The position numbers and the translations under genes were made by a program. This document shows positions 3,933-34,601 of a DNA stretch of 35,756 bases, in pieces. The notes below the pieces were generated by a model. The model saw nothing but the letters and a program-made list of their open reading frames with translations, made no database searches and was not told where the DNA came from. This DNA comes from Pavlovales sp. CCMP2436 (lineage: Eukaryota > Haptophyta > Pavlovophyceae > Pavlovales): NCBI GenBank assembly GCA_026770615.1, contig MU631458.1, positions 195,223 through 230,978 of the forward strand, given 5' to 3'. Each line of letters opens with the position of its first letter. Within the stretch, counting starts at the first letter, position 1.

Positions 3933-5660
3933 ATGGCGGCCAAGATCCAGGCGCTGGTCGCGCGCATGCGGGGACCAGACCGCGCGGACCAGGCTAGCTC
4001 CGCGAACGCGATTGCAGGACTCACCTACGACGCGACCACTCGCACGCTTCTCCTGGAGGCGGGCGCGCTGCCGTTGCTCGTGGCGCTGCTGCGCGCTGGC
4101 ACCGAGCAGGGCAAGGCGAACGCAGCGGGTGCGATCTCATGACTGGCCTATGACCCACCCGGTCGCACACTCATCGTGGGGGCGGGCGCGCTGCCGCTAC
4201 TCGTGGCGCTGCTACGCGCGGGCATCGATCTGGGCAAGGGGCACGCAGGGGGCGCAATTGGAGAGCTCGCCTCTGATGCGCCCACCCGCAAGCTCATCGT
4301 GGAGGCGGGCGCGCTGCCGCCGCTAGTGGCGCTGCTGCGCGCTGGCTGCCAGGTGGGCAAGGGGAACGCAGCGTATGCGGTGGCACTGCTAGCCAACGAT
4401 GCGCCCACCCGCACGCTCATCGTGGGAGCGGGGGCGCTGCCGCTGCTCGTGGCGCCACTGCGCGCTGGCAGCCAGGTGGGCAAGTGGAACGCAGCGGGTG
4501 CGATCGCAAAGCTCGCCTCTGACCCACCCACCCGCACGCTCATCGTGGAGGCGGGCGCGCTACCGCTGCTTGTGGCGTTGCTGCGCGCTGGCACCGAGCA
4601 GGGCAAGGCGAAAGCAGCGCGTGCGATTGCATGGCTGGCCCATGACCCACTCACTTGCACGCTCATCGCGGAGGCGGGCGCACTGCCACCGCTGATCGCG
4701 CTTGTCAGCCCGTCGCGCGCCTGCTCGGATACCATGGCTGGTGTGAACGCCTGCAACGCTTTGCGAAAACTCGCTGGTAATGCGCGTTCGCGTGAGCTGG
4801 CAGAGGAGCACGGAGCTGCGGGCGCGCTCGCGGCTGCCGCGCACACCCCCGGCTGCGGGTGGGCTGACAAGGCGCGCACCGCGCTGCGCGCGCTCTGCCC
4901 GACGCAGGACGACGCCGAGCGCACGCTGGGAGACACGCATCTCGAGAACTGCGCCCTGCGCACCGAGCGCGACTCGTCCTCCGAGTGCTACGCGTCATTC
5001 GCGTCGCTCGCCGGCCTGGTGGAGAAGGGCCACGACGTGGTCTTTCGCTGCAAGGACGGCGAGGAGATTGGCGGCAGCCAGCTGCTACTCGTGCACGCGT
5101 CGCCCTACTACGAAAGGCTGCTGTATGGCGGCATGGCGGAGGGCCGAAAGAGCCGCATCGTCGAGCTCGACGCAGAATTCTCGTCGGCCGCGCACCGCGC
5201 GCTGCTCGGCCAGCTGCACGCAATGGGCCAGACCTTGCTCCCGGCCTCCCTCGACGTGCGGCTCGAGCTGCTCTGCCTCGCGGCCAAGGTGCGTGGCGCG
5301 CCCAGCGCCGGCCCAGACGCGGCGGCACGCGTATTTGAGCGGTGCGAGAGCGCGGTGCGCGATTCGCCCTGCGCGGACAACTGCCTCGCCGTGCTACTGC
5401 AGCTCAAGCCGTGCGCCGCCGATGTGCCAGAGCTCGTCGACGCAGCGCACGTTGTGGTGGCTGAGAATGTGATAGCGGTTTTCAAACAGCCGGAATGGCT
5501 CCAGTTTGTGGAGCAGTACCCGAAGGCCGCGGTGGACATCTTGCAGGACATCGCGGTCAAGCAGGCCGGCGTCAATGCGGAGCAGGCCGGCGTCATCGCG
5601 CAGCTGGACCCGCAGGCGGACGGCTCGCGCTCGACGCGCAAACGGCCGCGCGCGGCGTGA
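3933..5660 (+). pseudogene. Armadillo-repeat + BTB protein, in-frame TGA
   Basis: Reading from ATG 3933 gives about 575 codons in one frame, broken only by TGA at 4140-4142. Residues 1 to ~280 are tandem armadillo repeats with the recurring signature LIVEAGALPPLVALLRAG. A linker follows, then a BTB/POZ domain (about 5030-5200; GHDVVFRCKDGEEI, LLLVHASPYYERLL) with helical sequence after it. ARM and BTB domains are protein-interaction modules, and such proteins are often substrate adaptors for cullin-3 ligases; that role is inference. The TGA falls where a sister repeat has TGG (AIAWLAHD versus AIS-stop-LAYD), so it looks like a single Trp-to-stop change, a sequencing error or a readthrough site. 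No intron is evident. The alternative is a shorter protein from an internal start. Confidence 0.85.
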
Positions 5661-8560: not shown

Positions 8561-9249
8561 TGCGGGTAGAAGAGGGCGTGCGGAAGCTGCGCCCTGCCCG
8601 CCCGCCCCTCTTCAGGCCTCGCGGGGCTGTGTGCGATACCCGCGTCCTTCACGGGTCAAGTTTGATGCTGAGATGGGGTTTGACTTTGTTTGCGACGTTT
8701 TTTTTAATCAGCTTGTTTTTAAAAGTCTCGAACTTTGTTTATAGACGCGCGCGCGCCGACAAATAACCTATAAAAATTAAAATGACGTGCGCTGATGCGC
8801 AGCTTGCCTAACCGCCGGGGGCGGTAATCTCCAACCCCTGGTCTAGTCCCAGGCGGCGGGGTGACTCAATAATCCTCCACTTATCTTAAAAAAATGTCTC
8901 CTAATCTAAGTGGTTGCAGTTGTTGGCCTGGGATAAGTGGTTTGGTTCCTCTGTAGTGTGAGCCGATGTTGCTGTGTATCACGCGAATGGGCGTGGGTCT
9001 GAGGTCTGTTTCTCTGGGCGTGTTTATCAGTGTGACTAGTGAATGTTGTCGGAGCCTGCGTGCCCCTGGTCTTGGTGCTGCTGGTGGCGCCCAGTGAACG
9101 CTTTTAAGTTGTTTTGGTAGTGGATGGGCTGGGTGAGATAAGTTGGGGTCTGGGCCTGCCATATGAATAAATAAGGTTGAGGTCGCGTCAATTCCCACTT
9201 GCTTGTGAGTGGCTAATGCTATGTCGATCCCTAGGATGGTTGCTACATA

Positions 9250-9416
9250 CAGGGGATCGCGGGCAATAGACACGGCGGATTTCGAGGCAGAGGCTGAGTT
9301 TCTTAGCAAATTTCATACAAACAATGGTTAGAATTTGGTTGAAATTACTATTGAAGGGCAAAAAAACGAGGCTCAGTTTCTTAACGCGACGGTTTCTTAT
9401 TGCCCGCGATTCCCTG
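9250..9416. mobile_element. MITE copy A (TA target site)
   Basis: 167 bp with terminal inverted repeats CAGGGGATCGCGGGCAATA / ATTGCCCGCGATTCCCTG, flanked by TA at 9248-9249 and 9417-9418. It interrupts the minus-strand OTU domain. Inner arms carry gaggctgagtttcttagcaa. No coding capacity. TA duplication and a CAG start fit the Tc1/mariner group, perhaps pogo-like; that assignment is inference. Confidence 0.85.
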
Positions 9417-9424
9417 TATGCTGT

Positions 9425-9614
9425 CACGCACCTAAATGGACGTGAGCGTTGTGTGTGGGGGGGGGAGGGGGGGGAGCCTGTGGCAATTGCTACGAGTTCA
9501 CCACCAACCTCACCTCTACCACCACCATCCCTGCTGCCAGGACTAACGTCTAACGTCGACCAAATCAGCGAGTGAGCAACACCTGTTGAACCATGCTGAG
9601 CCGCTATATATATA
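9425..9614 (-). mobile_element. SINE-like element with 8-bp target duplication
   Basis: 190 bp flanked by tatgctgt at 9417-9424 and 9615-9622. A second copy lies reversed at 32262-32459, and a truncated one at 6503-6588. One end is a (TA)n run next to gcggctcagcatg; the other is cacgcacctaaatgg. There are no terminal inverted repeats, and the simple-repeat tail suggests a non-autonomous retroelement. It landed in the flank of MITE copy A, so it came later. Confidence 0.7.
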
Positions 9615-10488
9615 TATGCTGTACACAGAACATGTTGTTGTGTATCCAACCGCCTTCCTTTGCCTGCTATGCCATCGACCACATGGAAGCGGTGCTGTTG
9701 CCACAGGGATCTGTTGAGTCTTCTTCGGGCCGTCTGATGTCCAAGTGGTTCTGGACGTTTTCGGGTACATTGAGCCCGGGCGTGGGCTATGGCTCGTTCG
9801 TGGAGGTTCGCTGCTGCTTGTTTGTGACTTGCACCGCTGCCGTCGATCCCCATGGCTGCGTAGAGGAAACCGTTCCCGTCACGCACAACGTCCATGTCCA
9901 TGAGGTTTACGGTAGCATAGAGTTCTTCGATTTCCCAGGCTCTCACTGTTGTCCATTAGATAATTATCTTGGGTTTCCCATGGCGGCCCTTTTGAGCGCG
10001 TGGATGTTTCAAGGGGTTGTTAATGGTTATTGTGCTGCTTCCGCCTCTATCTTCCGTTGGAGTGTTGTTGACGATTAGTGTGCTGCTTCCGGCTCCATTT
10101 CCTGTTGGAATATTGGGTATGCCAGTGCCCTTTTTTGTGCGAGGTCGTTTGGGGGGGTTGGGGGGGTTGGGGGGGTTGGAAGTCCGCCCCTTTTTTTGGG
10201 TCCGAGCTGGGTACCAGAGAAAACGAGCCTGTCTCCTCGGCCACCACTGGAAATCAGCTCGAACCATCGGCAATGCTGCGAGGCGTCTCTCTCGACACCT
10301 GCCATCCCAGAATCAGCAAACACCTAGCGAAACAGCGATCTCATCAGCCGCAAACACATGCTCCAATATAATTAAACTCCTCGTCTGGCAAAATCCTAAT
10401 TCAAATCCAACGAGCTAGTTCGCCTCAATTCTGATGCAACGCCGAAATAATCCACATCGACCAACGATCAGTAAGCCAAGCAAACTAA

Positions 10489-10608
10489 ATGGCTACTACC
10501 TTCCCCAAAAGCCAAATCACCAGCAGCGAGCAAAACGATCAGCTAAAAATTGAATTACAATTACAGCCACAGGCCAAGGGAAACCGATCAGAACCTACAA
10601 ATATTTGA
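10489..10608 (+). pseudogene. Possible start of LINE leader ORF
   Basis: ATG 10489 opens 39 codons (MATTFPKSQITSSEQ...) rich in Q, K and S, ending at TGA 10606. The same codon style continues in other frames to 10907, so the reading frame has probably shifted. A 29-32-bp tandem repeat (tccaagctgaaaatgactct) lies at 10812-10872. No family is recognised. It may be the N-terminus of the polyprotein or a remnant of a separate ORF1. Confidence 0.3.
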
Positions 10609-12608
10609 AGAAGTCACAGCCCAAACACCCAAAACTACGCCAACAATTCTCCAGGTGCCTGAGAAAGCTTATAAACTTTGTCCAAACCTCAACAATCAAA
10701 CCTCAAACAGCCCGGATCCTCACGCGACACCGGAAGCTCGCTCGTCGCCAGGCCTCAAAACTCAGCGAAGTCTGGCAGAGAGGTCCACCACCTATCAGGC
10801 TTAGAGCGCTCCACTCCAAGCTGAAACTGACTCTTCTAAGACTCTTCCAAGCTGAAAATGACTCTTTTAAGCCAATAAAGTCGCCCAACTGGACAAAATA
10901 GCGGAAAGTGAATAATCAAAACAGGATCCATAACTGCCTTCGACTTGCAAACAGGACACCCCGAATCAAAATCCGGAACATCTCATCACCCCCTGCCAAA
11001 ACACAACAAACAAACTCCACAGCAATCACATTGACCCAACCACCGCAAAAACATATACAACTCCAAATTAAAACTTTGGGAGGCAATACGGTACTTATAA
11101 ACACACATCAGAAAATTACGTGCTCAGAGCTACACTCTTTAATCGCGAAAACAACAAAAATGCCACTCAAATACATCTACCTTCTGCACCAAGGAAAAAT
11201 ACTACCAGCAACCGAGGACGCATGCGTCATCACACACGGAATCACAACTCACGCCACAATTCACCAGATAAGACGCCTCCGGGGTGGCAACCCGAATCAG
11301 ACACCCAAAAAGAACAATATTCTAATCGCATGCGCGAATGTCGGCGGTATAGCGTCCGATAAAAACATCATCAGACTCAATGCACTTCTCAAACATTAAT
11401 GGGAGGTTAACCACACCGATTACGACATTCAACTTTTGCAGGAAACCAACCTCAGCGAAGGTACCCCTGCAACAGACTACATCGACGGATACACTCTTTA
11501 CAGCGATTACAAGCCAAGCACCATCAAATCCGGCTCAGGAGTTGCGATCACTGTAAGAACTACTACAACAACCAACTTCATGACTCTCACCAACATTACG
11601 AGAGGCAAAGATCTGAGCTCAGACGCAGCCGGCCTCGTCATGACAGGCAATTTAATTCTACAAACTAAAACGGGTCAGACGCAAATATTAGAGCTCACCA
11701 GCTTCTACGCTCCACATGCCAAGTCAAGAAAGGAACCTTTTCTCCCAATTCTGAAAGCCCATCTGACAGCAGGAAACCGAATGGCCCTCGGCCGATCATG
11801 TGTCGTTCGCGTCCCAGGGGGTGACGGCAACGGCGTGTGGGCCACAAATGAAGTAGTCTACCTCACCAACGACACTAGGGCGGCACAACAAAGCCACGAA
11901 ATTAACCCCTACGGATGGGGAAAACCTCACAGAAAGAAAAATCAAAAATTACCCGGAACTTTCGATGCACTGACAAACTACACACACCGCACCGGCGAAA
12001 CATGCAAGCGCATAGATTATATTTTCTCCAACACCGACATGAGCAATCACGTGCGCCACATTCACGAAGAGGATGGCGCTTTCTTAAAACGCGGTCTCGA
12101 TACCAGCTCACATTTCTGGGTCACAGCAAATATTTCCCTAAAACTACTCAACGGAGCAATCCGACCTCCAGCACATAAACGCTACCAACCACCGCGCATA
12201 CACCTGCATATAGCAAATCGTCAGGTACAAGTCAAAATTGTAAGTGCCCTAGTACCCGCCTTAACGAAGATGCTAGACAATCTCCCGCTGGAGGTAGGAC
12301 AAACATTTACAGAAAACGGATTCCTAACGAGAGACGACACACCACCAGCGGAGTGGACAGCAACTTTCAGTAAACTGAACAACGCAATATCATCACTCAC
12401 TGAATTTGCCACTATACGTACCAGAGAAGCACTGTGCCTACCTCCGATTGCATCAAATGGAGACAAACCTAGTAAACGCATTATATGTGTCCTCGCCCCC
12501 GAAGCAAGAGAAGACAGAAACCTGTCCGCCTGGTACAGCAAAGCTGCGGCAGTTACCACCCAAATCCTAGCCTCGCGCAGCAACCCCCCTCGACTTCATA
12601 GATCTTAA
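10605..12608 (+). pseudogene. Ubiquitin-like domain fused to AP-type endonuclease
   Basis: One frame runs through two stops (TAG 10899, TAA 11397). It starts with a basic region (KKSQPKHPKLRQQ..., many K/R), then a ubiquitin-like domain at 11055-11288 ending in RLRGG, then directly an EEP/AP-type endonuclease. Endonuclease landmarks are NILIACANVGGIASDKN (strand 1), LLQETN (11433-11450, catalytic Glu), GSGVAI, LTSFYAPH, a GGDGN where GDFN is usual, KRIDYIFSNTD and SSHFWV (place of SDH). The endonuclease nicks target DNA to prime reverse transcription. The frame ends in a C run at about 12584-12590; one base fewer would continue into FIDLNPRRTATGF. GDGN and SSH may mark decay of catalytic positions. 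Confidence 0.85.
11055..11288 (+). other. Ubiquitin-like domain ending RLRGG
   Basis: 78 residues against 76 in ubiquitin. The start IQLQIKTLGGNTVLI parallels MQIFVKTLTGKTITL. YIYLLHQGKIL sits where ubiquitin has the hydrophobic-patch strand and the LIFAGKQL turn. ATIHQIRRLRGG parallels STLHLVLRLRGG. A two-residue insertion falls in the loop near EDACV. The final Gly-Gly is at 11283-11288 and is followed at once by NPNQTPKKNN and the endonuclease, which is the layout of a cleavable ubiquitin fusion. It is too diverged to be a recently captured host ubiquitin. Confidence 0.85.
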
Positions 12609-13302
12609 CCCAAGACGTACCGCAACTGGCTTCCTTCTAACAAAATTTGACCATATTCGCCATCGCAGAGACATGACAGCATACCAGGAAACCATTAATA
12701 AATGGAAACCCCATGACGCACCTATCCTCGGAGGCACCACAACACCAAACCACAAGAACCTGTCTAGAATAGGAATATCTGCACTCCGCAATTGGCGAGA
12801 CCAACTCCGTCAGAAAACAGCAGAACGTACATTATGTAGCATTCATCGGGAAACAAAGGGCAGCCGACCAAAAACGCGCCAAAGAGCTGCAAAAAGCTAT
12901 CCTAGCTGAACTCTTCCGCAAAGGTACAGCAGATGCACGCATCCTACTCAATAGACCCTTTTGACACTACAGCGCTGACCTCACTATGTTAAGAGTCGAC
13001 GCCACAGGGAAAACTACACAGGACCCAGCCACCATCAGAGACGCAGCAGCCGTCTACACGGAAAGCCTCCTAAAGCCACCACAACAGCAAAACCCCACTT
13101 CCTCGAGCACCGAACGGCCATGGGAAGCTCGAGCATTCTGGGAACCCTGCCGCTCCAGATGGAACACAGAAAACACCAAACAAGTGTGCGCCCTCGCAAC
13201 CGAAGCCGAAATTATCAAGCTGATTCATAAAGGTAAGACCAATGGAGCCCCAGGCCTCGAGGGCATCCAATACGGAGTGCTAAAGTTGATGCTACATACT
13301 TG
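12585..13302 (+). pseudogene. LINE linker and RT N-terminal motifs
   Basis: After the shift near 12590 the coding trace reads DLNPRRTATGFLLTKF, then the helical linker typical between endonuclease and RT (RHRRDMTAYQETINKW, later QRAADQKRAKELQKAI). It then passes a TGA at 12961-12963 into TLRVDATGKT-like sequence. ALATEAEIIKLIHKGKTNGA and PGLEGIQYGVLKLM (to ~13290) match the N-terminal RT motif K.APG.DGI of non-LTR elements. Several frame changes occur. The coding trace is cut by the insertion at 13303. Confidence 0.75.
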
Positions 13303-13698
13303 CCGGGCTGGAATAACTAGCTTTCGGTGCCGACCGGCGTCGGCGCCAGTGTGGGGAGGGGGGGGCCGCCCCCCCCCCCCCCCCAGTGTGAGGCGGGGGC
13401 GTAGCCCCCGCCGGCCCGCGGCCGGCGGCCGCAGGCCGATCACTCAGGCCTCAGTGTAGGTGGGGGCGCGCAGCGCCCCCACACTGACGGTCTCAGACGA
13501 GGGTGGCAGTCACTGGCAGACGTGGGCGGCGGCCGCAGCCCTAATCGCGCAAATATTCACAAGGTCGGATAAATAATATCTTATATATATATTTAATGTC
13601 ATTCGTCGTCGGAGCCCAGTGTGCCCCCTCAGCCGGCCCCAGTGTGCGGCCGCCGATGGGAGCGGTCGGTAGGTTATTTGGTAGAAATTCCAGCCCGG
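13303..13698. mobile_element. 396-bp hAT-like MITE in RT domain
   Basis: Ends CCGGGCTGGAAT and ATTCCAGCCCGG are perfect 12-bp inverted repeats. They are flanked by the 8-bp duplication catacttg at 13295-13302 and 13699-13706. The interior is very GC-rich, with poly-C (13371-13384) and several self-complementary stretches (ggccgcgggccggcggccgc type), and has no coding capacity. An 8-bp duplication fits the hAT superfamily; a 6-bp reading (atactt) is possible if the terminal GC pairs belong to the element. Confidence 0.8.
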
Positions 13699-13706
13699 CA
13701 TACTTG

Positions 13707-14698
13707 CAGACGAACTAGCCGCAGAACAGGCATGTAAATGCGGTGTTTTCTACCATCCCGACAGAGTACAAACGCTTATCACCAACATAGTAAACTGCCT
13801 CCTACAAATACCCAAATTACCCAAAGAAGTCACCAAGGCAGAGGTCGTCTATTTCCATAATAAGGGCGACCCTCTACATTTGACCAATTACAGAGGCATT
13901 GCGCTCCAAAGTGTCCTTTACAAACTAGCAGTAGCACACTCAGCAGGACGCATTCAAGCAGCAGCACGCAATCAAGCACTTATCCACTCAACCCAAGGAG
14001 CCACGCAGCCCAAGAGTAACTCCGGCCTATAGGCAGCAGGCCGAATCTCCATTATCATGCACGCACAACGCACCAACAGTGAGCTCCATATCGTCTTCTG
14101 TGACTAGCCAAGGCTTTCGACAAAATCCCACAACAAGCTTTGAAGAGAGCGCTTGAACTACACGGCTTCCCCGATGAACTCATCCAACGTGTCGAAAATC
14201 TGCAAGTTTGCAAAGAAGCAGCCACCCGCACCCCATACGGCCACTCGCCTAACACGTGTCCAATCACATTAGGATGCAAACAGGGCTGCCCCATGAGCCC
14301 CATCAGATTCTGCCTTTTCATCGATATGATTTATCGCTGGCTTGCCATCACATACCCCGAAGCCGCCTACAAAATCGGAAATGACATCGAACACAGGCTT
14401 TTTGCACAAGCCTGGATGGACAACAAGGAGCACTCAGCGAATTGCACTCCTCCATGACTTTCTCACCGCCCACAATATGACGCTTAACATTTCCAAATGC
14501 AGCCACCTACAATGGCTACCCACAGGGACTAAAAAAAGAGCCAGTGCAGACGAGGAATCAGGCGAAGAACCAACAAAGCTAATCATCCCAGCAACCATCT
14601 CGCGCCCACACCTAGAGATCACAACACTCAATAACGGTGACCAAGTGAATCATCTAGGAATCAGCATGGGTCCGGTTTTCGACCGGGAAGCTACATAG
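13707..14698 (+). pseudogene. Reverse transcriptase core
   Basis: RT motifs in order: KAEVVYFHNKGDPLHLTNY, then RGIALQSVLYKL (~13890-13925); STQGATQPKSNSGL, then TAG 14030; motif A HIVFCD (catalytic Asp codon 14102-14104), broken straight after by a one-base loss before AKAFD-like sequence; motif B GCKQGCPMSP (14272-14301); motif C as QAWMDN (WMDN codons 14413-14424) where xxDD is expected; then, in another frame, LLHDFLTAHNMTLNISKC and the HLGISMG block. RT copies the element RNA at the nicked target. One catalytic Asp is Asn, so the copy is inactive as read even without the frameshifts. Confidence 0.85.
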
Positions 14699-15300
14699 AC
14701 GCGCCTATTATCACGCTTAGGCGCTGCAGCAGCCAGATGAAAGGCGGTGGCTGCGTCTCCAGCGTGCCGCCTAGCCACATTGGCCATGTTCACAGCACAT
14801 GATATACAAAGCCTTCTCCCATACCACTTACAAGCGATAGGTACCACACCAAAACAACAAAATCAAGCACGGACGACAATGCTCTCACCCTTGATAAGAA
14901 GTGGTCTCCTAACCGCGATTAAAACACCAACAGCCATGCTCTGTGGCTCTCTTAGAACCGGAGGAAATGGCATTACAGACCCAATAGCACTTAACGTAGG
15001 ATACAAAGAAATCGCGGCGCAGGGAGGCCGCAAGATGTACGCGCTGATGGGCGTGAGTCCGATGGAGGCGGCCGCGCGCATCAAGAAGCAACTCATCGAC
15101 ACGATCGGTACGATCGCGGCACGCGGCCATGCGCAGCTGCTGCTCGCGCGCTTGAGCGCGCTGGCCCCGATCGCTGCCCAGCTTGGGAACACGACAAACA
15201 GCAACCAGCAGATCATCTCCCTAAACGCCCTTGCCCGGGCACACTACCGGAGATCCATCGGCACGCGTGGTGGCGCCCAAGCCAGCGCAGCCGACTAAGG
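14699..15300 (+). pseudogene. RT thumb/connector region
   Basis: A frame from about 14747 reads ACRLATLAMFTAHDIQSLLP, then YHLQAIGTT, LSPLIRSGLL and LRTGGNGITDPIAL. This resembles the helical thumb and the GG.G..D conserved block after RT in non-LTR elements. From about 15010 the base composition becomes GC-rich (KMYALMGVSPMEAAARIKKQ) and ends at TAA 15296. Exact domain borders cannot be set by eye. Confidence 0.55.
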
Positions 15301-15789
15301 CCCGCAGCAGGCAATGGGCGACGCAGCGCTCAGACCAGCAAAACATTCAGAACAGTCAGACGCCAGCTTGAATCCCTATCAGTCAATACAAAGCAGCAAC
15401 GCTACTCACGCTCTTAATTACGGAATCAGCCACGGGCCTAGCGACACAAGAACTATACCATTTTTACAACGGCAGCCTCGACTACGACAGATCCCAGTCC
15501 TGTTTCAACACCCTATACCCACCCACAGTCGTTGAAGACTGGCGATCCATTAATAGCACGATCACAAAAGAATCCAACGACCAGAGCGCAAGTCAAACGC
15601 GCATAGCAACAGACATCCCAATTGGGGAACTCACCCTTGGAGAAGTCCTCGGTCCCGATCTAAACGCCATGCCCACCAACGGGGCAGGCTCCCTCAATAA
15701 TAGGCAAAGGCAAAACCTACGATACCACCTAAGCAGACCACTCGCTAGAACACTGCATTTCTGCAAACTCATCAATGGACAACCAAATA

Positions 15790-15956
15790 CAGGGGATCGC
15801 GGGCAATAAGAAACCGTCGTGTTAAGAAATTGAGCCTCGTTTTTTAGCCCTTCCATAGTAATTTTAACCAAAATTTAACCATTATTTGTATGTAATTTGC
15901 TAAGAAACTCAGCCTCAGCCTCAAAACCCGCCGATCTTATTGCCCGCGATCCCCTG
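15790..15956. mobile_element. MITE copy B inside LINE
   Basis: 167 bp; ends CAGGGGATCGCGGGCAATAA and TTATTGCCCGCGATCCCCTG. Left flank TA (15788-15789), right flank TG (15957-15958), so one duplicated base has probably changed. The insert lies within the connector coding trace. Confidence 0.9.
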
Positions 15957-16050
15957 TGGTGAAACGGAACTAGACCGTAGTATACTCTCGCCCGACCCGG
16001 CAGCCACGATCCAACACAAGATCGACTCGCACATTCACCAATACGCCATA

Positions 16051-16330
16051 CAGGGGATTGCGGGCAATAAGAAACCGTCGTGTTAAGAAACTGAGCCTCT
16101 TTTTTTTGCATTGCTTGTATGTAATTTAAGCAAGTTTGCATTGTTTGTATGTAATTTGCTAAGAATCTCAGCCTCAGCCTCAAAAAGCGCCGTTCTTATT
16201 GCCCGCGATCCCCTGTATCGGGGTGGAGCTTGGGCGGCGGGACACACGGGGCGCGAAAGGAACGGGCGGGGCGGCGGACACATTGCGGGTCGGGGGAGGA
16301 ACACGGGTGGCGGACACACGGGATCCCCTG
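16051..16330. mobile_element. Composite MITE copy C with satellite arm
   Basis: A 165-bp MITE (16051-16215) is followed by 105 bp of ggcggacacacggg-type sequence and a further terminal repeat end, GGGATCCCCTG, at 16320-16330. TA flanks the whole block at 16049-16050 and 16331-16332, and the LINE frame rejoins across it. So the composite inserted as one unit. The same composite, reversed, is at 23230-23504, where the satellite arm is longer. Confidence 0.8.
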
Positions 16331-16429
16331 TAGCACACTCCTACAGAGACTCGTTTTTCCACCAAAGCAGAGCACTCTTTGCAGACGCCTGGGTGACCCA
16401 CTGGCATCACAAGGGGACAAAGACGAAAA

Positions 16430-17663
16430 CATCTCGCCAGCCCTCCAAAACCTTCTGACAAGCGCAGCACTCCAGGCCCTTCCCCGGTTTGCTGCATCCA
16501 CATGCGCCAGGCCCCATACCGCACATCTCCGGAACGCACATCTGCAAAAACATGACAAACCACTCGGAACAGACCCTCCTCAAAGCTCTCACGTAACTGA
16601 CGTAGCAGTCGATGGCTCCCACAAGAAAAGAACCCTCGAATTCCCAGCTCGAACAGCAGGAGGAGTTGCCTTCCTAGTGAACTATACAGACGGCAGACGG
16701 GAGATACACATGACTAACGCCATCCGAACGGGGGACAAAGACGTACTAGACAGCGAACTTACAGCTACGACACTCAGCCTCCGACTAAAATCCCTCCACA
16801 AACAGACAATACTCACTACATCGTGGAACTGCCTAAACCCACTGAGGCACCTGTGGCGCTCAAATCCAATTTGCAAACCAGCCACCGACGCCGATACACA
16901 AACCCACCACCACTCCGCAGACGAGATAGCCACACCAAGCCGACAGTCACAACTCCGAAGGCTCAGCGAACACCTCACACGCAACACCGACACCGGCCAA
17001 ACTCACACTTTCAAGCACCAAAAAGCACACAAATACGACACCTTCCTCAGACCACTGATTATAAACCCAACAGTAGACGCAGCCAACCAAGTTTACATCA
17101 TCGACAACGAGGGAACCAATGCTCTCATTGCCAAGGCAAACGAGAGACAACCAGCACCCACAGCAAGGGAAGCCCCAACTCTATCTCATGACGGAGTGCA
17201 TGTGACACTCAACGTATGCGCTGACTGGGCCGCGAGACAAGTCGCAGTAGGGGGCAAAATCCCTTTCCACGATCTAGGCCCATGCGCATGGCCCCCAGCA
17301 AAGTACAGCCCCACCGATAAGTATGGAAATTTCATCGACCACACTCCATCCACCATCCGCCGGACAGTCACAGAAGAGATAGGTAATCTCGCAATACTCG
17401 CCCACATCCAAAAAGATCTTATGGACCGGATTAGACGCGCACAAAAACATGCCATCCGCACCAAAGACCGAACAGACCTATGGCCAGAAGAGTCAACAGC
17501 CTCCCTAAAACCACCCCTGGGCAACGGCACAGAGGCAGGGCAGCGCATATGTATACACGCGATGCATGTCAGGCACTATGACCTTAAACGCCGAACGGAC
17601 AAGAGACACGCCAGAACTCCTCGACGTAACCCTTTACGAGGGCGGACCCAAACTTTCAACTAA
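16430..17663 (+). pseudogene. RNase H domain of LINE
   Basis: RNase HI landmarks are VAVDGSHKK (Asp codon 16611-16613), GGVAFLVNY, DSELTA (Glu at ~16754), and NVCADWAARQ (Asp at ~17223). The domain removes RNA from the RNA-DNA hybrid. A long helical region follows (TVTEEIGNLAILAHIQKDLM) and the frame ends at TAA 17661. The coding trace then shifts to the frame of the zinc finger. The start of this frame overlaps the end of the connector through a frameshift near 16430. Confidence 0.75.
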
Positions 17664-19005
17664 GTGCCCCTTCTGCCTAAAAAAAGGCTACCAACCAGGA
17701 GACGGAACCGACTCAGTCGAACATATTATGTACACTTGCCCAGCAACAGCCACACAACGCAATCAACGTCGCGACGCAATCACTCACCGCCTATTCAACC
17801 ACTCTGCATCATTACAGGAAATAGGAGAAATCGTAGACTCTGCCCTCAGCCACCCAGACGCCCACACCGGAAGCATCTCTTTCGCGACCCGAGATCTAGT
17901 ACTGAAATGCAAAAATCACAATAAGGGATGAGAGTACAAGACCGGCTCCATACGAAATATACTCCTAACAGCTACATCAGTCCTAGTAGCAAAACGAAAC
18001 ATAATCACCAAAGGACCTACTCCACACCAGACGGACCCTGATGACGACACAGCACCAGACGCCGATTATAACAACAGTGAGTCAAAATTTAACCTCTCAG
18101 CAACGCACAACGTTGACGCATTTGCAGACAAACTCCATCGCCGCAAAGGCCACACCAACACACAACACAACCAAATCGCAACAAGAAAAGCAGCCCGCAA
18201 GAAATTCTCCCCAGCCAAGAAGGACCCCCCCAACCGCCCTCACGCACAAGATGACACGCCGCCTGCACCCGCCAACAAACGGATCAAAAAGATCGCCGGG
18301 CCCAAACAACATAAATGGACACTAATAGGCACACGTGAGCTCGATAAACTATACTCCACCATAGGCCTTATCGACATGAACGTCAAAGGCGACGGAAACT
18401 GCCTCCTCTACGCCGCAATGGGAATTGACGGCCATAACACAAACCACCCCTAAAAAGCCGCAAGAATTCGTCAGCTAGCCACATCCCACGCCAAATCACT
18501 ATCACCAAGAACACAAGAATCCCTGAAAATCAGACGAACGACCGAGTTCCCCTCAGATCCCATGGAAACAATCACCTCCCAGCCGTAGTCGGTATCATAC
18601 CAGGAAACGGACAATCACTGGATGAACAGTAACATGATTCATAGCATAGCCACCATCCTCTGCGTCGACATAGCAGTAGCCACGCACCATGCCGACGAAA
18701 AGAAAGTCCACCGAACCCTGGAACTCTACCGCGCAGGCCCACCCTGGACACCCACCAAGGGCACATTAGCGATCACAAAAAACCCAATACCACTCACAGG
18801 AGGCTGCCCATGGACACAAGAAGCACCAAGAACCGGAAACACAAAGGGAGGGAAACCACGCAAACAGCCAGCACACGCCATAACCACACTCATGCGCTCA
18901 CCCAGAATGACAGGCACAGAACAAATACCGATTCGAGTCATACACAGCGACATCACCACTCACTTTCGAGGAACCCAAGCTCGCACACACAACCAACAGA
19001 CCTAA
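17566..19005 (+). pseudogene. Zinc finger plus OTU cysteine protease
   Basis: A single frame with three stops (17929, 18451, 18586). First a zinc-finger motif CPFC...SVEHIMYTC, of the type found after RNase H in LINEs. Then a long K/R/P/Q-rich linker. Then an OTU domain: LDKLYSTIGLIDMNVK, GDGNCLLYAAMGIDG (Cys codon 18400-18402), DNHWMNSNMIHSIATILCVD, and PIRVIHSDITTHFRGT (His codon 18961-18963). OTU proteases cleave after ubiquitin Gly-Gly. The two active-site motifs are intact, and a truncated near-identical copy exists at 7576-7942. OTU-like proteases are known in some algal non-LTR elements (Dualen/RandI), so its presence here is credible. Confidence 0.85.
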
Positions 19006-19198
19006 TGATGTATAGTTTGTTGTTGAGAAAAGAAAGTTTATTCAGTAAAGAGGAGGATTATTGAGTCACCCTGTCCGACAGGCTAGAGACCGCTCGTTGG
19101 GAATCGTGGCCGGGGGAAGGCGATAGCAGCCGCCCCCGTGAAAAGGGGCTGGTTCGGCGAGCTGCGCACACAGCGTACGTCATTTTAGTTTTATATAT
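19006..19198 (+). other. LINE 3' UTR with conserved stem-loops
   Basis: After the stop come gtttgttgttgagaaaagaaag, gaggattattgagtcacc, and a GC-rich segment with cccc-gtgaaaa-gggg and a tagagaccgctcgttggg block, ending near cgtcattttagttttata. The same blocks occur in both minus-strand copies. In the diverged copy the stem sequence differs but pairing is kept. Such 3' ends are usually what the reverse transcriptase recognises; that function is inferred. Confidence 0.6.
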
Positions 19199-19251
19199 AA
19201 TTGTAACGGCTATTTGTTACTGCTATTTATTCATCATAAATGGAACACAGG

Positions 19252-33486: not shown

Positions 33487-34601
33487 ACAGATCAGAAAGG
33501 TGGCGTTGGCACCGAAAGTCGCTTTGCGCACCTTGGCCCGATCAGACGTCTCCTCCGCGTCTTCAGCCGCACACGCCAGTTCGCCGCCCAGATGCCCGCC
33601 CCCGCGCCCTCCGAAGAAAAGTACAAACTCGCCAACGCGTACGCCGCACACGTGGCTGCGGGCTGGCGGCGGCCGCGCCGAGCCCTGCCGCACGATTTCG
33701 CACGGCGCGGCCCTCGCCTCGGCCCCGTCCGGCTCGAGCCGGAGCACGATGGAGGTGGCGAGCTCCTCGTCCGTCACCGCGTCGACCCCGCCGAAGAGGA
33801 GCACCTTCCGCCCCAGTCGCCAAGGACGAATGCCGTGTCCAGAATCGAGCCACCAGCGAGTACGCAGCGCACGCCCACCGCGGAGAGCGAGTGACCTGCA
33901 CTCTCGGGCGGAGGGCTGCCGCTGCACACCGGAGATTCCCACTCGACCGATGCGCCACCCTCGCTCAGCCGGCAGACCCACAAATCCGCGAGTAGCTCGA
34001 AGCCGTGCGTCCCGCCATAGACGACGACCCCATCGTCGAACGCGGTGCACGCGGCGTGCGCCTGCCGCGCCTTCGGCCACCTCACCTCGGCGCCGGCCGG
34101 CGCGCTCGCGCGGTGCGTCCAGCGCAGCGCGAGTGGCCGGCCAAGCGGTTCGCTGATCTCTCGCCGTTTGAATGTGACCTCCTCTGTGCCCTCTTTCACC
34201 TCGGCCAGTGTTGTCGCGCGGAAGATGGCACCGTCGCTGTCATCAACGGCGGATATGGCGTACAGCTCGAGAATGGCCACGTCTGACAGCGCCAACGTCG
34301 AGCCATGGTCGTCGAGGCCCGTGCCCCCGAACATGAGCACACTGCTGTGGTGCTTGCGCCCGTTGCGCACCAGGCACGCGCTGTGGCTGGAGCGCCCGGG
34401 CGGGGCGACACCGCCAAGGGCAGGGCGGATCCACACGCTGCGCGCCGCGCCTGGCAAGACCTCTAGAACCCACACCTCCTCGAGCTGCGCGCCGCCCTGC
34501 GTCCCGCCGTAGAGGATGACGCGCTGCTCGCAAGCCACCGCCGAACTAGAGAATCTCTTGGAGGGCGGGGTCGACGCCGCGGCCAGCGGCGCCCAGCGCA
34601 T
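33487..34601 (-). CDS. Kelch-repeat protein, one frameshift
   Basis: Kelch signatures in order are EQRVILYGGTQGG...EEVWVLE, SSVLMFGGTGLDDHG, GVVVYGGTHGFEL...DLWVCRL, CVLAGGSILDTAFVLGDW, RKVLLFGGVDAVTDEE and GEFVLFFGGRGGG. About five or six blades of a beta-propeller are visible, a protein-interaction fold. The start RWAPLAAASTPPSKRFSS fits the W..l....P..R strand before a first blade. ATG 34601 is a possible start, but CCTCACAG just upstream could be a splice acceptor with an N-terminal exon further up. A one-base loss in the C run at 33811-33814 moves the frame between GDWG and RKVLLFGG; with a homopolymer, a sequencing error is as likely as mutation. The 3' end is uncertain. Confidence 0.75.

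Follow-up and report, generated by a model that had tools for sequence, protein, structure and literature searches.

A stretch of 35,756 nucleotides from the haptophyte Pavlovales sp. CCMP2436 (assembly GCA_026770615.1, contig MU631458.1, positions 195,223 to 230,978 of the forward strand), referred to in full as the window, contains between about 10.2 and 19.2 kb a decayed copy of a non-long-terminal-repeat (non-LTR) retrotransposon of the long interspersed nuclear element (LINE) type. The polyprotein encoded by this element carries a ubiquitin-like (Ub-like) domain ending in Gly-Gly between a very basic leader and the apurinic/apyrimidinic endonuclease (APE), and ends in an OTU-like region. 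The best explanation, which we put forward tentatively, is a LINE with a Ub-like domain whose own OTU protease, or the deubiquitinases of the host, would cut after the Gly-Gly. All parts lie on the forward strand, in the following order:

10203 to 11054, forward strand: very basic leader, in the same frame as the Ub-like domain, with in-frame stops at 10416, 10551 and 10899
11055 to 11288, forward strand: Ub-like domain ending in RLRGG (LRGG codons at 11277-11288), recognised by Pfam and by sequence matches in the PDB
11313 to 12077, forward strand: APE (PF03372), with an in-frame stop at 11397-11399 in this copy
13235 to 15016, forward strand: reverse transcriptase (RT; PF00078), split by an insertion at 13301-13700 resembling a miniature inverted-repeat transposable element (MITE)
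16431 to 17240, forward strand: RNase H-like region (DGS / LDSEL / YIIDN / ADWAA), D-E-D-D motifs recognised by eye and kept in copies
17665 to 17739, forward strand: CCHC zinc finger (CPFC...H....C), recognised by eye and kept in copies
18250 to 19002, forward strand: OTU-like cysteine protease (Cys codon 18400-18402, His codon 18961-18963), with in-frame stops at 18451 and 18586
19006 to 19198, forward strand: 3' untranslated region and the 3' terminus common to subfamily A, from the alignment of fetched loci

The architecture of the element is documented by its other copies. When the 119 Mb of the genome were searched, the Ub-like domain of the window with the start of its APE gave 13 matches, and the version from a second subfamily (B, the window copy belonging to subfamily A) gave 19, the two lists overlapping. 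In all nine copies examined (window, L002 and L003 of subfamily A; L004/L072, L005, L006, L007, L008 and L073 of subfamily B), the Ub-like domain, whole or as its 3' part, lies immediately upstream of the APE. A single frame without stops runs through the 3' part and the tail into the start of the APE in 6/9 (window, L002, L003, L004, L006 and L073), and it takes in the entire domain in two, the window and L004; past the tail, L005 changes frame, L008 soon has a stop and L007 presents a deletion. The three copies followed over their whole length (window, L072 and L073, the last with only the 3' half of the Ub-like domain) are all collinear, running from the Ub-like domain through APE, RT, RNase H and CCHC to OTU, and on contig C4 the Ub-like and OTU parts are found on one strand, 10.6 kb apart. 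In addition, L075 keeps the end of RNase H, the CCHC finger and the OTU in a single open frame of 592 residues. A host gene overlapped by a transposon was ruled out, because copies occur at many loci and the Ub-like domain precedes the APE in every copy examined. Beyond this genome, a protein search with the alignment of the Ub-like domains returned a sole match, the metagenome protein P0009, in which a partial domain with the RLRGG tail continues in frame into the start of the APE; the same type of search with the window Ub open reading frame (ORF) alone gave no match, and no relatives were confirmed in viral contigs or, for the OTU only, in prokaryote genomes.

The ubiquitin profile PF00240 matches the segment from 11055 to 11288 with an E-value of 5.7e-7 and 29.7 bits (cut-off 25.4), as the earlier note on this DNA, made from the sequence alone, had anticipated. 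The subfamily B domain of L004 also exceeds the cut-off (27.6 bits), the partial domain of P0009 reaches 16.6, and PDB ubiquitins match the window domain by sequence. Compared with the ubiquitin encoded at locus L042 of the same genome, which we take to be an eL40-like fusion, the domain shows 26-30% identity, and the final five residues, RLRGG, are the same in both; between subfamilies A and B the domains are 56% identical. The exact RLRGG tail is found in five of ten sequences (window, L005, L006, L073 and P0009) and in both subfamilies, while Gly-Gly is present in eight of the ten; the five tails that deviate from RLRGG do so at one or two residues, which is what decay would produce.

The codons of the Ub-like domain are under purifying selection between the subfamilies. 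Over 77 codons compared between the window and L005, the ratio of nonsynonymous to synonymous substitution rates (dN/dS) is 0.27, and the changes at the three codon positions number 26/9/36 (chi-square p 0.0004, presuming equal neutral rates at all three positions). The ratio is 0.25 against L004 (113 codons, start of the APE included) and 0.30 against L007 (76 codons), and all 18 A-B pairs, which are mutually non-independent, give 0.16-0.43. Since dS is 1.0-1.3, near saturation, in the comparisons of the window with L005, L004 and L007, and given the dependence among pairs and the assumption of the chi-square test, these ratios are approximate. Within subfamilies, the 17 defined pairs, several of them covering just 20-42 codons, span 0.15-0.92 with a median of 0.45, the higher values (0.92 for window-L002) fitting decay after insertion. 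Chance resemblance to ubiquitin was ruled out by this selection, together with the Pfam score above cut-off and the occurrence of the domain in two subfamilies.

The Ub-like domain had been described in the earlier note as N-terminal, and this proved incorrect, because a basic leader lies upstream in the same frame. Indeed, frame 2 is open for coding from 10203 to 11396, the three leader stops aside, and reads through the leader and the Ub-like domain into the start of the APE. The leader contains 28 Lys and Arg residues versus 3 Asp and Glu within 115 residues and resembles that of subfamily B (24-44% identity/similarity at the protein level, E-values down to 1.6e-12). This conservation, together with the shared frame, makes the Ub-like unit internal. 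The two leader ORFs scanned, from L003 and L006, had no Pfam match, so that the leader as a known domain is unsupported; we infer a gag-like role for it.

Downstream of the junction, the evidence for the individual domains is uneven. The window APE, read in the frame of the Ub-like domain, matches PF03372 with an E-value of 6.2e-5 and 23.3 bits, slightly below the cut-off of 24.5. Three of four APE pieces from the two subfamilies match this profile, all under the curated cut-off (L006 at 3.6e-4 and P0009 at 2.2e-3 besides the window), and the piece L073:1030-1365 does not. The RT is recognised by PF00078 (RVT_1) with E-values of 2.5e-8 in the window and 2.2e-14 in L073, and the latter matched ten PDB sequences, namely R2, LINE-1 ORF2 and other RT entries (best E-value 7.2e-8). 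RNase H had no Pfam match in the window frame or in the L077 piece, and no restriction-like endonuclease (RLE) family appeared in Pfam scans of the open pieces, nor any such motif by eye between the CCHC finger and the OTU. The one-strand domain set proposed earlier is thus sustained by profiles for the Ub-like domain, the RT and, slightly under the cut-off, the APE, whereas RNase H and CCHC rest on motifs and the OTU lies below the Pfam cut-off.

The C-terminal region is most likely a putative ubiquitin-cutting OTU protease, judging from its motifs, one sub-threshold Pfam match and a low-confidence structural model. The window copy has GDGNC, with the Cys, and a C-terminal THF, with the His and an aromatic residue. 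Among the relatives from the protein search, which include Pavlovales sp. CCMP2436 proteins (one of these, P0007, matches the present genome at 96% over its residues 1-103), the Cys is kept in all six whose sequence extends to it and the His in three of four, two relatives having GKGNC or GNGNC for DGNC. The CCHC-OTU part of P0008, a protein from an MMETSP transcript, is by eye closely A-like, which indicates that A-type sequence is transcribed somewhere. A Foldseek search with the OTU model returned OTU proteases at all of ranks 1-32 of the PDB matches (best E-value 0.037). The profile searches fared differently: two window pieces scanned with Pfam had no OTU match, an NCBIfam scan gave nothing useful, and PF02338 run on the whole genome found three genes and zero element copies, so that this profile misses the OTU of the element. 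In the two genome searches with element OTU sequence, at least about 150 matches each were scored, versus the 13 and 19 obtained for the Ub-APE start, an excess that 5' truncation of most copies would produce; a common 3' end and 5' truncation are indeed found among the copies, as for non-LTR retrotransposons. The central claim of the earlier note, that one retrotransposon combines a Gly-Gly Ub-like module with a C-terminal OTU-like protease, is supported by the other copies, by the selection acting on the Ub codons and, with low-confidence models, by fold searches.

In the explanation that we tentatively favour, the OTU or host deubiquitinases would cut after the Gly-Gly, 8-13 residues ahead of the endonuclease domain. 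As the Ub-like unit is internal, behind the leader, cleavage would part a leader-Ub protein of the ribonucleoprotein (RNP) from the enzyme part comprising APE, RT, RNase H and OTU, and would give the APE-RT protein a free N-terminus. The ubiquitin fusion would then do the job done elsewhere by 2A peptides or gag-pol proteases. The OTU may also remove host ubiquitin from the RNP, and the freed leader-Ub protein might be conjugated to host proteins. It is plausible that the Ub-like unit and the OTU form a substrate-protease pair, and Gly-Gly self-processing would be the likeliest role of the unit: the ubiquitin tail kept in a diverged domain, and its position at the border between leader and enzymes, argue for processing over mere docking. 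The domain order, the reading frame across the junction, the Ub-APE junction in both subfamilies, the selection and the tail are direct observations.

Several observations weigh against this explanation. No copy found has all domains in one open frame, and none has the Ub-like and OTU parts in one uninterrupted frame; on contigs C349 and C116, the 3.5 and 3.1 kb examined near the expected OTU position contained no element sequence. The residue aligned with I44 of ubiquitin is Leu in subfamily A and Thr in subfamily B, and standard ubiquitin-binding proteins may recognise the domain poorly as a result. The catalytic His is missing from the OTU of L075, and the Cys from the subfamily B fragment in the window. 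PF02338 matches only one of 11 OTU relatives, at an E-value of 0.0046 and below cut-off; when compared by hhalign with two host OTU genes, the element OTU reached a probability of 1.3%, over a stretch that includes the Cys motif; a profile of the element OTU searched against the PDB by sequence retrieved no OTU, with weak proteasome-subunit matches at E-values of 0.69 or more; and the model behind the Foldseek result has a mean predicted local distance difference test score (pLDDT) of 48.6, that is, low confidence.

A serious rival, which we nonetheless rate as rather unlikely, is docking or shielding, in which the Ub-like domain remains part of the protein and attracts ubiquitin-binding factors of the host (proteasome, repair or chromatin proteins), while the OTU independently frees the RNP or the target site of host ubiquitin and no Gly-Gly cleavage occurs. 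Free-standing ubiquitin-like docking domains do not require a Gly-Gly tail, yet RLRGG is present in both subfamilies. The rival gains from the fact that OTU and Ulp1 proteases occur in other mobile elements, for which passages of PMC2836005 and PMC4067079 propose a role via the ubiquitin pathway and DNA repair. The weak sequence evidence for the OTU would fit processing left to the host alone, with host deubiquitinases removing the Ub-like unit and the OTU-like domain serving another purpose or being an inactive protease. Natural fusions of ubiquitin to ribosomal proteins are processed by host enzymes in this manner. We nevertheless consider host processing alone improbable, since the OTU Cys and His are largely kept among the protein-search relatives and the leading fold matches are all OTU proteases. 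Least probable, and indeed very unlikely, is a piece of a host ubiquitin-like gene fused by chance and without function. Capture may be easy, given that another family in this genome (F2, described below) also bears Ub-like domains, but the codons of the domain are under selection, and this, like its retention in two subfamilies and in the metagenome relative, speaks against a functionless passenger.

The window copy itself is dead, interrupted by stops, frameshifts and nested insertions. Its extent had been given as 10605..19198: the start has to be moved upstream, as the coding leader begins at 10203 and A-type homology at 10223, while the 3' end was confirmed, alignments extending to 19169-19207 in 26 of 29 fetched loci (29/33 rows; two loci end earlier and one is without a row). 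Between about 10.2 and 19 kb, this strand is A+C-rich, with an AT skew mostly of 0.15-0.49 and a negative GC skew, and the adjoining 1-kb steps on both sides differ. Two further features belong here:

13301 to 13700, no strand assigned: nested MITE-like insertion with 19-bp inverted ends, foreign to the element and interrupting the RT
8911 to 10170, reverse strand: 3' fragment (OTU part) of a subfamily B element, abutting the window copy at 10170 and separate from it

MITE-like insertions are also present at 15789-15957 and 16050-16216, these two being of one family; the inverted ends are of 19 and 23 bp. A GC-rich segment at about 15020-15310, noticed by eye and encoding ...IGTIAARGHAQLL... 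or a shifted frame thereof, is present also in L005 and L072, and as its position differs among element copies it looks like a small mobile insert. In L072 (contig C322), the subfamily B element continues into an A-type OTU end right after its own OTU, as a nested insertion or a chimera. Elsewhere in the window, a Kelch-repeat ORF (33774-34601, reverse strand) and an armadillo-repeat ORF (4176-5660, forward strand) are likely host genes.

Two other families of the same genome bear on the origin of the Ub-like unit. Family D (L080 and L081) is a related LINE whose basic leader precedes an APE with about 38% identity to that of A/B, and in both copies examined no Ub-like domain lies between the two, which means that either the A/B line acquired the unit or D lost it. 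A search with the D APE gave 113 matches, some of which are A/B copies, and the D contigs C58 and C122 are not among the OTU matches listed. The open frames of this family measure 599 and 631 residues (L080 and L081), and 747 residues at C218. Family F2, apparently unrelated, encodes two Ub-like domains, occurring as pairs 1.4-2.4 kb apart on nine contigs. In the one copy examined, L074 (G000:C591:43100-53000, minus), ankyrin and F-box matches, weak and below cut-off, fall between the Ub-like domains, and a downstream ORF is RT-like by eye but had no relevant Pfam match and no PDB match. Of the 30 ubiquitin loci fetched (L042-L071), 22 carry a domain of the F2 type (L049 and L051-L071). Another of these loci, L044 (contig C660), has a signal-peptide-like start and ubiquitin-like domains with RLRGG, presumably resembling the plastid-targeted ubiquitin-like proteins of secondary algae.

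A broader proposal, possible although more doubtful, is that haptophyte retroelements captured Ub-like domains at least twice, and that in the LINE lineage the Ub-like unit and the OTU would constitute a self-contained cassette, cutting the polyprotein at Gly-Gly so as to part its RNA-binding leader from its endonuclease-RT. Elements of this kind may rely on ubiquitin chemistry for cutting or shielding the proteins that they encode. How non-LTR retrotransposons part their RNA-binding from their enzymatic portions, and how they handle control by host ubiquitin, is poorly known beyond a few models; with an element that brings its own Ub-like unit and OTU-like protease, a single cleavage assay could address both. 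The presence of Ub-like domains in a second family of the same genome, apparently unrelated, suggests that the ubiquitin system is important for the mobile elements of this algal lineage.

While OTU and Ulp1 proteases in mobile elements were known, the Ub-like unit between leader and APE, in combination with an OTU-like C-terminus, appears new here; no Ub-carrying LINE was found in titles and abstract openings among the top-ranked matches in the open-access literature, most subscription journals lying outside this coverage. The earlier note had attributed OTU-like proteases to Dualen/RandI elements, for which no confirmation was obtained, the term OTU being absent from the two Dualen-mentioning papers searched for it. 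Passages of PMC4640811 and PMC3636483 define Dualen by an APE plus an RLE and report RNase H; non-LTR nature and APE are shared with the window element, which also has an RNase H-like region, and no RLE was recognised in the latter. Helentrons and Ginger1, which are DNA transposons with an OTU, and NeSL/Utopia, with Ulp1, likewise encode ubiquitin- or SUMO-type cysteine proteases, no ubiquitin-like unit being mentioned for them in the passages available. With APE-type LINEs (L1/I-like), the window element shares the APE, an RT matching R2 and LINE-1, an RNase H-like region, a C-terminal CCHC finger, a common 3' end and a large excess of 3' over 5' matches, and differs from them in the Ub-like unit and the C-terminal OTU-like domain. 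Ubiquitin-ribosomal protein fusions (eL40 and eS31) and ubiquitin-insertion pestiviruses carry, as here, a ubiquitin unit joined through LRGG to a second protein that follows it; in those systems the ubiquitin is near-identical to that of the host, whereas the domain described here has diverged to 26-30% identity.

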